Below, piece by piece: positions 4,749 through 59,200 of a DNA stretch of 64,000 nt. A program made the translations under genes and the position numbers. This stretch comes from Amycolatopsis thermoflava N1165. GTDB lineage: Bacteria; Actinomycetota; Actinomycetes; Mycobacteriales; Pseudonocardiaceae. The notes under the pieces were generated by a model that saw only the letters and a program-made list of their open reading frames with translations, did not search any database and was not told the origin of the DNA. The stretch lies in the NCBI RefSeq assembly GCF_000473265.1, contig NZ_KI421511.1, positions 6,465,909 to 6,529,908 of the forward strand, given 5' to 3'. The stretch's first letter is position 1. Each line of letters starts with the position of its first letter.

Positions 4749-5426
4749 ATGGGTTTCGCCGCGGTGGTGTTCGACCTCGACGGTGTCCTGGTCGAGAGTG
4801 AACACCTCTGGGAGGAGAACTGGGTCGCCTACGCGGCGGCCCACGGTGTCGAGTGGACGGCCGCCGACACCGCCACCGTCCAGGGCATGAGCGCGCCCGA
4901 GTGGGCCGCGTACCTGGCGGAGCGCAGCGGGACCCCGGAGACCCCGGAGCAGGTCGAGAAGGCCGTGGTCGACGGGATGATCAAGTCGATCGCCGACGGT
5001 GAGGCCCCGCTGCTGGACGGCGCCGACGCGATGGTGCGCGACGTGGCGGCCCGCGTCCCGGTCGCGCTCGCGTCCTCGGCGGCGCGCCGGGTGATCGACG
5101 CGGTGCTGGAGACCCACGGGCTGACGGGGGAGTTCTCGGCCACCGTGTCCAGCGCCGAGGTGCCGCGCGGCAAGCCCAGCCCGGACGTCTACGCCGAGGC
5201 CGCGTCCCGGCTCGGCTTCCGCGGCGAGGAGTGCCTGGGGGTCGAGGACTCCAGCAACGGCATCCGCGCCGCCGCGGCCGCCGGGCTGACCGTCATCGCC
5301 CTGCCCAACCCGACCTACCCGCCAAAGCCGGACGCGCTGGAGCTGGCCGCACAGGTCGCGGAGTCCAACCACGATGTCCGGAAGCTGCTGCTCGCCTACC
5401 TCGCCGGGGAGCTGGTGCGCTCATGA
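4749..5426 (+). CDS. HAD-family hydrolase (subfamily IA, beta-phosphoglucomutase-like)
   Basis: A 225-residue haloacid dehalogenase-fold phosphatase or phosphomutase. Motif I is FDLDGVLVESEH, with the nucleophilic and acid/base aspartates. Motif II is ALASSAAR, motif III the lysine of RGKPSPDVY, and motif IV GVEDSSNGI. A helical cap lies between motifs I and II. It is the first gene of the rightward operon and its stop overlaps the kinase start by four bases (ATGA). It probably acts on a phosphorylated sugar or polyol from the same pathway. Confidence 0.88.
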   Translation: MGFAAVVFDLDGVLVESEHLWEENWVAYAAAHGVEWTAADTATVQGMSAPEWAAYLAERSGTPETPEQVEKAVVDGMIKSIADGEAPLLDGADAMVRDVAARVPVALASSAARRVIDAVLETHGLTGEFSATVSSAEVPRGKPSPDVYAEAASRLGFRGEECLGVEDSSNGIRAAAAAGLTVIALPNPTYPPKPDALELAAQVAESNHDVRKLLLAYLAGELVRS

Positions 5427-7111
5427 CCACGTTGGGAACGGCCGCGACGTTCAAGCGGGACTGGCTGGACGGCTTCGTCACCGCGTACGGCCGCGAGGTG
5501 CGCAAGGTGCCCGGCGCGTACGGCGTGCTCGGCCGGAACGTCCCCCGGCGGGGCAAGGTCGCCGTGGTCATCGGCGGCGGCTGCGGCCACTACCCGGCCT
5601 TCGCCGGCCTGGTCGGGCCCGGCCTCGCCGACGCGGCGGTGGTCGGTGACGTGTTCACCAGCCCGAGCGCCGAGCAGGTCTACCGCACGGCCCGCGCCGC
5701 CGAGGGTGGCGCGGGGGTGCTGTTCGCCTACGGCAACTACGCCGGCGACGTCCTGCACTTCGGCCTCGCCGCGCGCCGACTGGCCGCGGAGGGCATCGAG
5801 AGCCGCACCATCCTGGTCACCGACGACATCGCGAGCGGACCGGCCGACGCGCCGGAGAAGCGCCGCGGGGTGGCGGGCGACTTCATCGTCTTCAAGGTCG
5901 CGGGCGCCGCGGCCGAGCGGGGTGACGACCTCGACGCGGTGCACGCGGCGGCGGTCAAGGCCAACGCGCACACCCGCACGTTCGGCGTCGCCTTCGGCGG
6001 CTGCACGCTCCCGGGTGCCGACCAGCCGCTGTTCACCGTGGGCAAGTCCGAGATGGAGCTGGGCCTCGGCATCCACGGCGAGCCGGGGGTGCGCACCGTC
6101 GGCCGCCTCGGCGCGGCGGAGCTGGCCGACGAGCTGGTCGACGGCCTGCTGCCCGAGCTGCCGCGGGGCGACGGCCGCGTCGCGGTGCTGGTCAACGGCC
6201 TCGGCCGGACCAAGTACGAAGAGATGTTCGTGACCTACACCCGGATCCACGAGCGCCTCGCCGGCGCCGGGCTGACGCCGGTGCACACGGAGGTCGGCGA
6301 GTTCGTCACCTCGCTGGACATGGCCGGGGTCTCGCTGTCGGTGCTGGTGCTGGACGACGAGCTGGCCGAGCTGTACGGCGCGCCGTGCGACACCCCGGGC
6401 TACCGCAGCGGCGGGGCGATCCTGGAGCCGGTCGAGCTCTCGTCCACAGTGGACAAGCAGCTGGCGCGCCCGGAGGGTGAGGGGGTCGAACTCGTCGACC
6501 GCCTGCTGACCGCGGCCATGCGCCGCATCGAGGACAACGAGTCCGAGCTGGGCCGTCTGGACGCGGTCGCCGCGGATGGTGACCACGGCCTCGGCATGAC
6601 CCGCGGCATGCGAGCCGCCGTTTCGGCCGCCCGCGAGGCCGCCGGGTCTTCGGTGGCCGACACGCTGCTGGCGGCCGGGACCGCGCTCGCCGACGCCGCC
6701 GGTGGTGCGTCCGGCGCCCTGTACGGCGTGCTGCTCGCCGAGACCGGCGCGGGGCTGCGGGTGGACGAGATCACCACCGCGGTGGTCGCGGACGCGGTCG
6801 ACGGCGCGGTGCGGGCCTTCACCGAGCTGGGCAAGGCCGAACTGGGCGAGAAGACCATGCTCGACGCGATCGAGCCGTTCCGGCAGGCGCTGCGCAAGCA
6901 GGCCGAGGCCGGCGCCGCGCTGCCGGACGCGTGGCGCGAGGCCGCGCAGGCAGCGACGCTCGCCGCCGAGGAGACCGCGAACCTGGTGCCAGCCAAGGGA
7001 CGCGCGGCCCGGCTGGCGCAGCGCAGCAAGGGGCACGCCGATCCCGGCGCGACCTCGTTCGCCCTGATCGTCACGGCGATCGGGGAAGCTCTGGGCAAGG
7101 AGGGGAACTGA
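5423..7111 (+). CDS. DhaKL-type ketose kinase, candidate erythrulose kinase
   Basis: A 562-residue single-chain dihydroxyacetone kinase. The N-terminal DhaK domain (about 1-330) has VIGGGCGHYPAF, YGNYAGDVLHF and GLGIHGEPG, the last carrying the histidine that binds the substrate carbonyl. The C-terminal DhaL domain (about 365-560) has AADGDHGLGMTRG, DAAGGASGALYG and KGHADPGATS for Mg-ADP binding. Fused ATP-dependent kinases of this type phosphorylate dihydroxyacetone or C4 ketoses. Direct linkage to an RpiB-like isomerase resembles the erythrulose kinase/erythrulose-phosphate isomerase pairs described for tetritol use in Mycobacterium smegmatis. C4 specificity is inference. The ATG overlaps the previous stop by four bases. 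Confidence 0.85.
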   Translation: MTTLGTAATFKRDWLDGFVTAYGREVRKVPGAYGVLGRNVPRRGKVAVVIGGGCGHYPAFAGLVGPGLADAAVVGDVFTSPSAEQVYRTARAAEGGAGVLFAYGNYAGDVLHFGLAARRLAAEGIESRTILVTDDIASGPADAPEKRRGVAGDFIVFKVAGAAAERGDDLDAVHAAAVKANAHTRTFGVAFGGCTLPGADQPLFTVGKSEMELGLGIHGEPGVRTVGRLGAAELADELVDGLLPELPRGDGRVAVLVNGLGRTKYEEMFVTYTRIHERLAGAGLTPVHTEVGEFVTSLDMAGVSLSVLVLDDELAELYGAPCDTPGYRSGGAILEPVELSSTVDKQLARPEGEGVELVDRLLTAAMRRIEDNESELGRLDAVAADGDHGLGMTRGMRAAVSAAREAAGSSVADTLLAAGTALADAAGGASGALYGVLLAETGAGLRVDEITTAVVADAVDGAVRAFTELGKAELGEKTMLDAIEPFRQALRKQAEAGAALPDAWREAAQAATLAAEETANLVPAKGRAARLAQRSKGHADPGATSFALIVTAIGEALGKEGN

Positions 7112-40580: not shown

Positions 40581-40675
40581 GGAGGCGTATCCGGTCTGGT
40601 GACCGGCGCGGTCTTCAAAACCGTTGGGCGGCAGCCGCTGTCGCCGGCGGGTTCGATTCCCGTCCGCCTCCGCCA
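40581..40675 (+). tRNA. selC: tRNA-Sec (anticodon TCA)
   Basis: A 95-nt selenocysteine tRNA including an encoded CCA. The acceptor starts GGAGGCG and pairs with CGCCTCC before discriminator G. The anticodon loop CTTCAAA carries TCA at 40615-40617. There is a long variable arm with a GC-rich stem and a T loop TTCGATT. Bacterial tRNA-Sec has an eight-pair acceptor; here the eighth pair is T-C and mismatched. Location between selD and selA confirms the call. Confidence 0.93.
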
Positions 40676-57292: not shown

Positions 57293-57433
57293 ATGTCCAT
57301 CAAGACGAGCGGCTTGCACCACGTGACCGCGATCGGCGGCGACCCCCAGCGCAACGCCGACTTCTACCTGCGCACGCTCGGCCTGCGCCTGGTGAAGACG
57401 ACGGTCAACTTCGACGACTCGAAAGTCAACTAA
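57293..57433 (+). pseudogene. 5' fragment of VOC ring-cleaving dioxygenase-type gene, interrupted by element
   Basis: The product starts MSIKTSGLHHVTAIGGDPQR and continues YLRTLGLRLVKTTVNFDD, an excellent N-terminus of the ring-cleaving dioxygenase/hydroquinone-dioxygenase-like VOC proteins of about 300 residues. After FDD it reads SKVN and stops. The normal continuation (PGTYHLYYGD-like) is missing and is replaced by the mobile element. The AAGGAG ribosome site and start are intact. The 3' remainder should lie at the element's right end, outside the window. Confidence 0.82.
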
Positions 57434-57440
57434 CGGTGGT
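57405..57440. other. Putative left attachment site (attL) of serine-integrase element
   Basis: Homology to the VOC family ends within the codons for FDD (about 57410-57418), and the integrase module begins at 57454. The crossover core must be a few bases near 57405-57425 in CAACTTCGACGACTC. The exact dinucleotide core cannot be fixed without attR. Confidence 0.6.
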
Positions 57441-57453
57441 CTAGACTTCGGGA

Positions 57454-57789
57454 ATGACCCGAGCGCTGATCTACTGCCATGCGGCCACCCGCGTCGTCAC
57501 TGACCGCAGAGGTTCCGTTGCGGGCCAGGAAGAGGAATGCCGTCAGCTCGCCGCCGAACTCGGATGGCAGGTCGTCGGCGTCTACCGTGACGTCAGCTAT
57601 CCGCGTGCCCAGTATGAGGATCTGCTCAACGATCTCCGGGCCGGCAAAGGCGACGTAGTCCTCGCGTTCTCCCATGACCAGTTGCACGGCAACCTGGTCG
57701 ATCTCCACGCTCTCGCCGAGATCCGCACCGTTCAGCCCGTGAACGCCGGGGTCGAGGTACCCCGAGAGGACGACCAGCCGCGTGACTAG
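57454..57789 (+). CDS. Stand-alone serine-recombinase N-terminal domain, catalytically dead
   Basis: A 111-residue paralogue of the resolvase domain of the integrase next to it (MTRALIYCHAAT versus MTRAVIYCRISS; EEECRQLAAELGWQVV versus ETECRELAERLGWEVV). Every key residue is changed: the Arg and catalytic Ser of CRISS become His and Ala in CHAAT, and the two arginines of ADRLYRR become Gln and Gly in HDQLHGN. It ends after the alpha-E-like region and lacks the recombinase and zinc domains. Its stop overlaps the integrase start by eight bases, so the two are coexpressed. It could heteromerise with and regulate the integrase. Confidence 0.75.
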   Translation: MTRALIYCHAATRVVTDRRGSVAGQEEECRQLAAELGWQVVGVYRDVSYPRAQYEDLLNDLRAGKGDVVLAFSHDQLHGNLVDLHALAEIRTVQPVNAGVEVPREDDQPRD

Positions 57790-59200
57790 GGCTGTGATCT
57801 ACTGCCGCATCTCGTCCGACCCGACCGGGCGAGCCGCTGGCGTCCAGCGGCAGGAGACCGAGTGCCGTGAACTCGCCGAACGTCTCGGCTGGGAAGTCGT
57901 CGACGTCCTCGTCGACAACGACATCTCCGCGCACTCCGGAAAGCGGCGCCCCGCCTACGAGCAACTCCTCGACGCCATCAGCCTGGGCAAGATCGACGCG
58001 TTCGTCGCCTGGCATGCCGACCGGCTGTATCGACGCACCAAGGACCTTCAGCAGCTCATCGACATCGTCAACCTGCACAAGGTCCAGATCCGCACCGTCA
58101 CCTCCGGCGACATCGACCTCACCACCGCCACCGGCCGCGCGGTCGCCAAGACCGTCGCGACCTGGAACGAGCACGAAGTCGAACACGCCATCGAGCGCAT
58201 GAAGCTCGCGAAGTCCGCCGCTGCCTCCGAGGGGCGCTGGCTCGGCGGCGGCAGGCCGTTCGGGTTCGAAGACGACGGCGTCACGGTGCGCGAGTCGGAG
58301 GCCAGCGAGATCGTCGCCGCGGTTCGCCGCGTCCTGATGGGCGGCTCCCTGCTGGCCATCGCGTCCGAATGGAACGAGCGCGGCCTGCTCACAGCCCGCG
58401 GGAAGGAATGGTCGCAGACCACCGTCCGACGACTCCTGCTGCGCGCCCGCAACGCCGGCCTCGTCGAGTACAACGGGGAGATCGTCGGCCCGGCGCAGTG
58501 GCCCGCGATCGTTCCCGAGCACGAGTGGCAGGCGGTGCGGCGGTTGCTGAGTGATCCGTCCAGACAGACGGCGTTCACGCGGGACCGGAAGTACCTCGGC
58601 TCAGGCCTGTACCTATGCGGCCTGTGCGAGGACGGGTCAACAGTGCACGCCCACACGGGTGGACGCGGCGGCCGGCCGCACTACCGCTGCAAGAAGCCCG
58701 GTCGCCACCAGCTCATCCGCGGATCAATTCCGGTCGACGAATACGTCACGTCGACCGTCGCTGAGATCCTGGGCCACCTGGCGAAGGATGGCGCTCTGCG
58801 CCTCGCGCCTCCAGGCAGCGAGGACCTATCCGCGCTGTACGCGGAAGCGGCGTCGATCCGCGCCGAGCTGGACGCCGCGCGGCAGGCCCTCGCGAACCAC
58901 GACATCGACCTGAAGTCGTTCGTCGTGGCGTCGAAGCAGTGGCAGGCCGATCTCGATGCGGTGGAGGCGCGCCTGGAGCGGCATGGTGATCGTCAGCCGC
59001 TCGCGCTGGTGATGAACGCTCCGGATCCGGTCGCCGAGTTTCAGTCCGACCGGCTTCCGATCGACGTGAAGCGTGCCGTCATCGGCCGGCTCGTGAAGGT
59101 GACGTTGCTGAGGACCAAGCAGGGACGTCTTCCCGGTGGTCGGTACTTCGATCCGGCTTCCGTGGTGATCGAGCCGCGCCGGGCCGGATCCCACGGGTGA
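57782..59200 (+). CDS. Large serine recombinase (site-specific integrase)
   Basis: A 472-residue large serine integrase. The resolvase domain (about 1-145) has IYCRISSDPTG with the catalytic serine and ADRLYRR. The recombinase DNA-binding domain (about 165-270) includes GGGRPFGFEDDGV and TARGKEWSQTTVRRLLL. A zinc-ribbon-like segment follows (YLCGLCEDGS ... HYRCKKPGRH). A coiled-coil region lies around 345-410 (LYAEAASIRAELDAARQALA). It should catalyse attP x attB integration into the VOC gene at 57293. GTG start at 57782 lies within the upstream dead-domain gene. Confidence 0.93.
   Translation: MTRAVIYCRISSDPTGRAAGVQRQETECRELAERLGWEVVDVLVDNDISAHSGKRRPAYEQLLDAISLGKIDAFVAWHADRLYRRTKDLQQLIDIVNLHKVQIRTVTSGDIDLTTATGRAVAKTVATWNEHEVEHAIERMKLAKSAAASEGRWLGGGRPFGFEDDGVTVRESEASEIVAAVRRVLMGGSLLAIASEWNERGLLTARGKEWSQTTVRRLLLRARNAGLVEYNGEIVGPAQWPAIVPEHEWQAVRRLLSDPSRQTAFTRDRKYLGSGLYLCGLCEDGSTVHAHTGGRGGRPHYRCKKPGRHQLIRGSIPVDEYVTSTVAEILGHLAKDGALRLAPPGSEDLSALYAEAASIRAELDAARQALANHDIDLKSFVVASKQWQADLDAVEARLERHGDRQPLALVMNAPDPVAEFQSDRLPIDVKRAVIGRLVKVTLLRTKQGRLPGGRYFDPASVVIEPRRAGSHG

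Follow-up and report, generated by a model that had tools for sequence, protein, structure and literature searches.

In the genome of Amycolatopsis thermoflava N1165, a 111-codon open frame (ATG...TAG; hereafter the small frame) lies between the attachment site of a prophage and the prophage integrase gene (int). By its sequence, the small frame encodes a member of the Pfam family PF00239 that is without the defining features of an active recombinase and would no longer work as one. It is probably an eroding integrase remnant in the leader position of int, a reading that we favour over that of a regulator; signs that a dead domain is under selection are weak. All coordinates below refer to the window, that is, the whole stretch of 64,000 nucleotides that was analysed (contig NZ_KI421511.1, positions 6,465,909 to 6,529,908 of the forward strand).

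The small frame and the integrase at attL

The preliminary description had reported an intact 111-residue frame, paralogous to the catalytic domain of the neighbouring integrase (INT) and overlapping its start by eight bases. The coordinates of the two genes (Table 1) confirm the frame and the 8-base overlap, and the paralogy is borne out by the searches. The PF00239 (Resolvase N-terminal) match, with an E value of 4.6e-11 and 43.4 bits against a curated cut-off of 23.3, spans residues 12-89 of the small frame and positions 5-87 of the 145 in the profile. The small frame is 41% identical to residues 1-102 of INT (43 of 106 alignment columns; BLASTP 4e-17), and in the whole 8.69-Mb genome INT (2.4e-12) is its only match besides itself at E <= 0.001. 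Homology of the two beyond chance therefore follows from the BLASTP, Pfam and whole-genome matches. The phrog_95 integrase family of PHROGs also matches the small frame (E 3.6e-9), and NCBIfam gave three weak resolvase/Ccr matches, all below the cut-off.

INT itself can be classed, on sequence grounds, as an ordinary large serine integrase. It combines the Resolvase and Recombinase domains (PF00239, 1.3e-30; PF07508, 9.6e-14) with an intact active site and an attP nearby, as a large serine integrase should; Zn_ribbon_recom reaches only 16.3 bits, below its cut-off.

Table 1. Features around the attL end of the prophage, with the basis of each assignment
Feature	Position	Strand	Basis
5' part of the interrupted glyoxalase-type host gene, up to the attL core	57296..57417	+	45-aa query against genomes of the genus
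attL crossover dinucleotide GA (inferred)	57416..57417	.	attL, attR and intact attB of relatives compared by eye
attP right half-arm, CTCGAAAGTCAAC...	57418..57440	+	read by eye
-10-like TAGACT, 6 bases before the small-frame ATG (putative)	57442..57447	+	inference from sequence
Small frame: catalytic-dead, truncated serine-recombinase N-terminal domain, 111 aa	57454..57789	+	homology, lost residues, model
Possible int ribosome-binding site GAGAGGA, 11 bases upstream of the GTG and still within the small frame, near its 3' end	57764..57770	+	read from sequence
INT: large serine integrase, 472 aa, catalytic residues R9, S11, D80, R81 and R84 intact	57782..59200	+	domain and active-site comparison

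The pair sits at the attL of a prophage inserted in a host gene whose glyoxalase-like identity is a reading of its sequence. The 45-aa query from the 5' part of this gene has matches in 17 of 19 genomes of the genus; apart from the one in its own genome, all of them (n = 16) break off at residue 42 of 45. The 3' remainder, located by tblastn with the protein of a relative, starts at window-coordinate ~111075, ~53.7 kb downstream of the 5' part, and the point at which the host gene resumes sets the length of the prophage at ~53.7 kb. The matching attR core is placed at window-coordinate 111073-111074, outside the window. Around the GA core the right arm of attP, CTCGAAAGTCAAC, is a near-mirror of the left arm, TTGACGTTCGAG, seen at attR, and the inferred attP centre had no exact match in IMG/VR. 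A 13-bp match at window-coordinate 91782 had also been considered as attR and was rejected, since it is followed by phage-like sequence and not by the glyoxalase gene.

The phage genes in the window include an exonuclease VIII-like gene, a RecT-like gene and two HTH genes. Four small frames near attR were compared with PHROGs and Pfam, one of them also with phages, and no candidate for a directionality factor (RDF) was recognised among them. Also inside the prophage near attR, a DUF5753 HTH regulator is followed by a DUF397 gene (L054:5160-6382). The window holds, outside the prophage, a tRNA-SeC gene at 40581-40675.

Between the inferred crossover dinucleotide of attL and the start of the small frame there are 36 bases. 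The -10-like hexamer just before its ATG suggests a leaderless start; a sigma-70 scan found nothing. At the other end, the sequence shared with int is GTGACTAG, a type of overlap that coupled genes have, and the RNA fold at this overlap is unremarkable (z -0.63).

Residues lost and kept, and signs of constraint

The alignment of 41 relatives of the INT catalytic domain (MAFFT) defined 37 near-invariant columns, against which the small frame was read. S11 is replaced by V, R81 by Q and R84 by G, all three being invariant in 41 of 41 relatives. Residues 21-23 (including R23) are deleted, and so is the stretch N46-H51, with the invariant N46, D47 and S49 of the N-D-x-S loop. R9, D13, G20, Q24, R56, D80 and L82 are retained, R9 on condition that a four-residue insertion (HAAT) precedes it, which is where MAFFT places it and what the invariant columns imply; in an ungapped reading the position of R9 is occupied by H and that of the catalytic Ser by A. 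The small frame stops at a point that corresponds roughly to INT residue 117, short of helix E, and has no DNA-binding domains; its last ~20 residues align poorly. The loss of the catalytic Ser, as announced in the preliminary description, thus stands with either alignment (V or A), and two of the three conserved Arg that it counted as lost, R81 and R84, are indeed gone, the third, R9, being kept if HAAT is placed before it.

The same description had spoken of a systematic loss of active-site residues, and here the counts disagree with it. The small frame keeps 19 of the 37 near-invariant columns (INT keeps 31), and the losses amount to 6 of the 11 columns that we take to be catalytic and 12 of the 26 others (Fisher p 0.73), which points to a general loss that is not aimed at the active site. 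A preferential loss of catalytic columns (Fisher p 0.021) appeared when 14 hand-picked 'structural' columns were used; it was discarded, being gone with all 37. Of the non-catalytic columns, those that are strictly invariant number only 2, and the small frame retains both.

The net indels of the small frame are multiples of three, and there is no internal stop. Its composition is coding-like (GC1/2/3 of 0.78/0.41/0.77, GC2 being 0.405), as are its differences from INT by codon position (0.42/0.31/0.52 over 86 codons); the GC3 of 0.77 compares with 0.875 in codons 1-120 of int. Synonymous sites are saturated (pS of 0.56 between the small frame and INT, similar to that of functional pairs) and yield no clean omega (dN/dS). 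Since a random substitution creates a stop codon about 3% of the time, a frame of this kind would survive ~50 substitutions without a stop with a chance of ~22%; that it is open is, by itself, therefore weak evidence of constraint. The chance of 3-4 net in-frame indels under neutral indels is ~0.0005-0.04, a range that depends on assumed in-frame fractions and on an uncertain protein alignment, and the nucleotide alignment is too noisy to place these indels.

Private residues, defined as those that follow neither INT nor the family consensus, occupy 32 of 84 columns of the small frame, and they fit the family columns little better than permuted ones do (z 1.1, p 0.14). In the same test, with rows of at least 70% identity omitted for the relatives, 40 of the 41 relatives lie above z 1.2 (median 3.3) and INT reaches 4.0; L044, a functional relative, is alone as low as the small frame (z 1.05). 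The branch of the small frame in the tree measures 1.22 against 0.43 for INT. A sister relation of the two is not secured (support 85/29), a clade of INT and L044 without the small frame being equally good (p-AU 0.52).

AlphaFold models built from 51-row alignments of the same loci gave a pLDDT of 64 for the small frame against 84 for residues 1-117 of INT. The alpha/beta core of the small frame, residues 22-70, is predicted with fair confidence (block means 72-86), as are residues 1-10, and the best Foldseek matches of the model are serine recombinase catalytic domains (E 3.3e-5). The model contains no helix E. Nearly all of residues 80-111 fall below a pLDDT of 50, so that no fold is predicted for the last third, though INT cut at the same place is predicted to fold.

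Search for a second pair

The preliminary description had held that its idea of a selected partner would be refuted if the small gene were missing from, or frameshifted in, orthologous elements. The pair is absent from the relatives examined, and this tells against the idea only in part because the searches gave no close relative of the prophage: within the family, the ten other integrases with the best scores share 41-45% identity with INT (a few partial matches reach 50%), and the relatives of INT in IMG/VR, among the best rows listed, are 35-45% identical.

At the level of the small protein, 390 genomes of the family held no relative other than itself at E <= 1e-15, and in 397 genomes of the order and 394 of the class (E <= 1e-9; the three sets overlap) each other listed match lies within a frame of at least 464 aa. 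A single-protein query of IMG/VR gave no match. Nine phage records match, all annotated as integrase or recombinase, and seven plasmid records, five of them in annotated recombinase genes; two Paracoccus plasmid records that are unannotated at the match have frames of 276 aa and 621 aa there. The three distant loci that match among genome contigs lie inside frames of 383-718 aa.

Searches for the pair itself had the same outcome. No second pair was seen in two IMG/VR alignment searches, which covered the best 80 of 206 loci in one case and the best 80 of 120 in the other; of these, 24 and 16, respectively, have an upstream flank shorter than 400 bases (from the tblastn start), where the place of a small frame is invisible. 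Nor did a scan with a catalytic-domain profile find one in 216 of 219 loci (own copies L001, L002 and L006 left out; 200 with matches) and five further loci. Besides the window's own frame, which recurs as L036 and L057, the short uncut frames in the 216-locus scan were those at L004, L005, L015 and L075 (= L166), and none of them is a dead frame that immediately precedes an integrase gene. Loci L007-L035 (n = 29; L025 without upstream flank) contain no second catalytic-domain frame on the same strand. A PF00239 survey of 120 genomes, inspected by eye, gave no such pair among the matches listed, a 145-aa frame (G207:C146) being set aside.

Three of the loci have features of their own. In L075 (IMGVR_UViG_3300002735_000022, 5122-5583, minus strand) a stand-alone resolvase-type N-domain frame of 154 aa, stop to stop, follows a large serine integrase on its downstream side and has the opposite orientation. 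It has a Pfam match of 2e-7 on 130 aa and, by eye, Ala at the catalytic Ser (RCATD) with D-R-x-x-R kept, and is an independent dead-domain candidate. At L015:2931-3635 (minus strand) a serine recombinase of ordinary resolvase size, with an R-V-S motif, is oriented opposite to a large serine integrase and sits immediately downstream of it. L223 (NZ_CP045481.1, the 'plasmid' of Amycolatopsis sp. YIM 10) is a 40-kb circular record that looks like a phage genome, with genes for a serine integrase (35% identical to INT), capsid, portal and terminase.

Origin of the small frame and comparison with known systems

As an eroding remnant, the small frame would descend from a 5' partial duplication of int or from the 5' end of another integrase. 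With the putative promoter and leaderless start it would be the first gene of the int transcript. Ribosomes would initiate at its ATG, shortly past attL, terminate at the TAG at 57787-57789 and re-initiate on the overlapping GTG of int at 57782, a case of translational coupling. A stop or a frameshift in the small frame would then lower int expression, so the frame would have stayed open; a first gene coupled to int in this manner could plausibly be kept open. The remnant may still be translated, and its protein probably has no job. Coupling is not needed, since int may own a ribosome-binding site.

The remnant is favoured by the relaxed private substitutions, the unselective loss of columns, the long branch, the degraded fold, the lower GC3 and the lack of a second pair in the sets searched, and also by the in-frame net indels, the type of overlap with int and the place of attP in phiJoe, 18 bp upstream of int. 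Against it stand the predicted core (residues 22-70), the coding-like composition, the two invariant non-catalytic columns kept and the equally low z of L044. The first two of these, together with the in-frame net indels, the fairly confident residues 1-10 and the Foldseek matches, can be claimed for the regulator that the preliminary description had proposed, a dead domain that folds, contacts the INT catalytic domain and damps or directs recombination. Such a regulator is unlikely, and so is the contact that analogy would offer it, through a surface independent of helix E and comparable to the R interface of Tn3/gamma-delta resolvase. For Tn3 resolvase, catalytic-domain contacts apart from helix E are indeed described, helix E being the one that repacks as dimers assemble into tetramers (PMC9943657). 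The small frame, however, has neither helix E nor any DNA-binding part, its private residues look relaxed, its catalytic columns were not preferentially lost, its last third is not predicted to fold, and no second case was found in the searched sets. The phiC31 RDF binds the zinc domain of the integrase (PMC5814800), and this speaks against the small protein acting as an RDF through mixed tetramers.

The fuller form of the regulator, a duplicated catalytic domain turned into a dedicated, coupled non-catalytic partner that docks on the INT catalytic domain and controls recombination, is slightly less likely still. Pure debris, non-functional, uncoupled to int and open by chance in GC-rich DNA, is less likely again. 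It would agree with the fraction of frames left open after ~50 substitutions and with the possible ribosome-binding site of int, but the net in-frame indels would be improbable (given the assumed in-frame fractions and the uncertain alignment) and the composition is coding-like. A remnant kept in frame, perhaps via its coupling to int, accounts for these facts more economically than a regulator does and is favoured.

Were the dead domain functional after all, it would add a new means of controlling serine integrases, enzymes that have wide use in genome engineering but few known directionality factors. Taken as a remnant, it shows how the 5' end of an integrase can come to lie next to attP and remain an open leader frame, and it cautions against taking a single intact GC-rich frame for a conserved regulator.

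INT is an ordinary member, beside its attP, of the phrog_95 or R4-like integrases (Streptomyces phages R4 and phiCAM, with phiJoe in the R4-like cluster), being 33-38% identical, across the greater part of the protein, to the 60 phage records listed out of 561; what differs here is the extra dead N-domain frame between attP and int. According to PMC5311408, attP and int are neighbours in most phage systems, attP being 18 bp upstream in phiJoe, so that a frame between the two is unusual; the same paper places the RDFs of phiRv1 and SPBc within one or two ORFs of int. The small frame is like the RDFs (phiC31 gp3, Bxb1 gp47, phiRv1 Xis, phiJoe gp52) in that it encodes a small protein near int. 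Unlike it, these are not described as integrase paralogues in the portions of the sources available, and the small frame matches only integrase, resolvase and cassette-recombinase families. No similarity to a known RDF family was found in Pfam or PHROGs (integrase/resolvase families only), which excludes little because RDF families are diverse. A dead paralogue paired with a serine integrase was not found in the literature searched, which covered titles and the beginnings of abstracts, mostly of non-subscription articles and without preprints.

Inactive truncated recombination enzymes that poison mixed complexes are represented by the transposase inhibitors Tn5 Inh and the KP-type P element proteins, which keep oligomerisation and/or DNA-binding parts. 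The small frame is likewise a truncated inactive copy, but it is without helix E and DNA-binding domains. The accessory-site subunits of Tn3 resolvase, as described in PMC9943657, offer a case of catalytic-domain contacts made by non-cutting subunits; those subunits are the full-length active protein bound at other sites, whereas the small frame encodes a dead paralogue.
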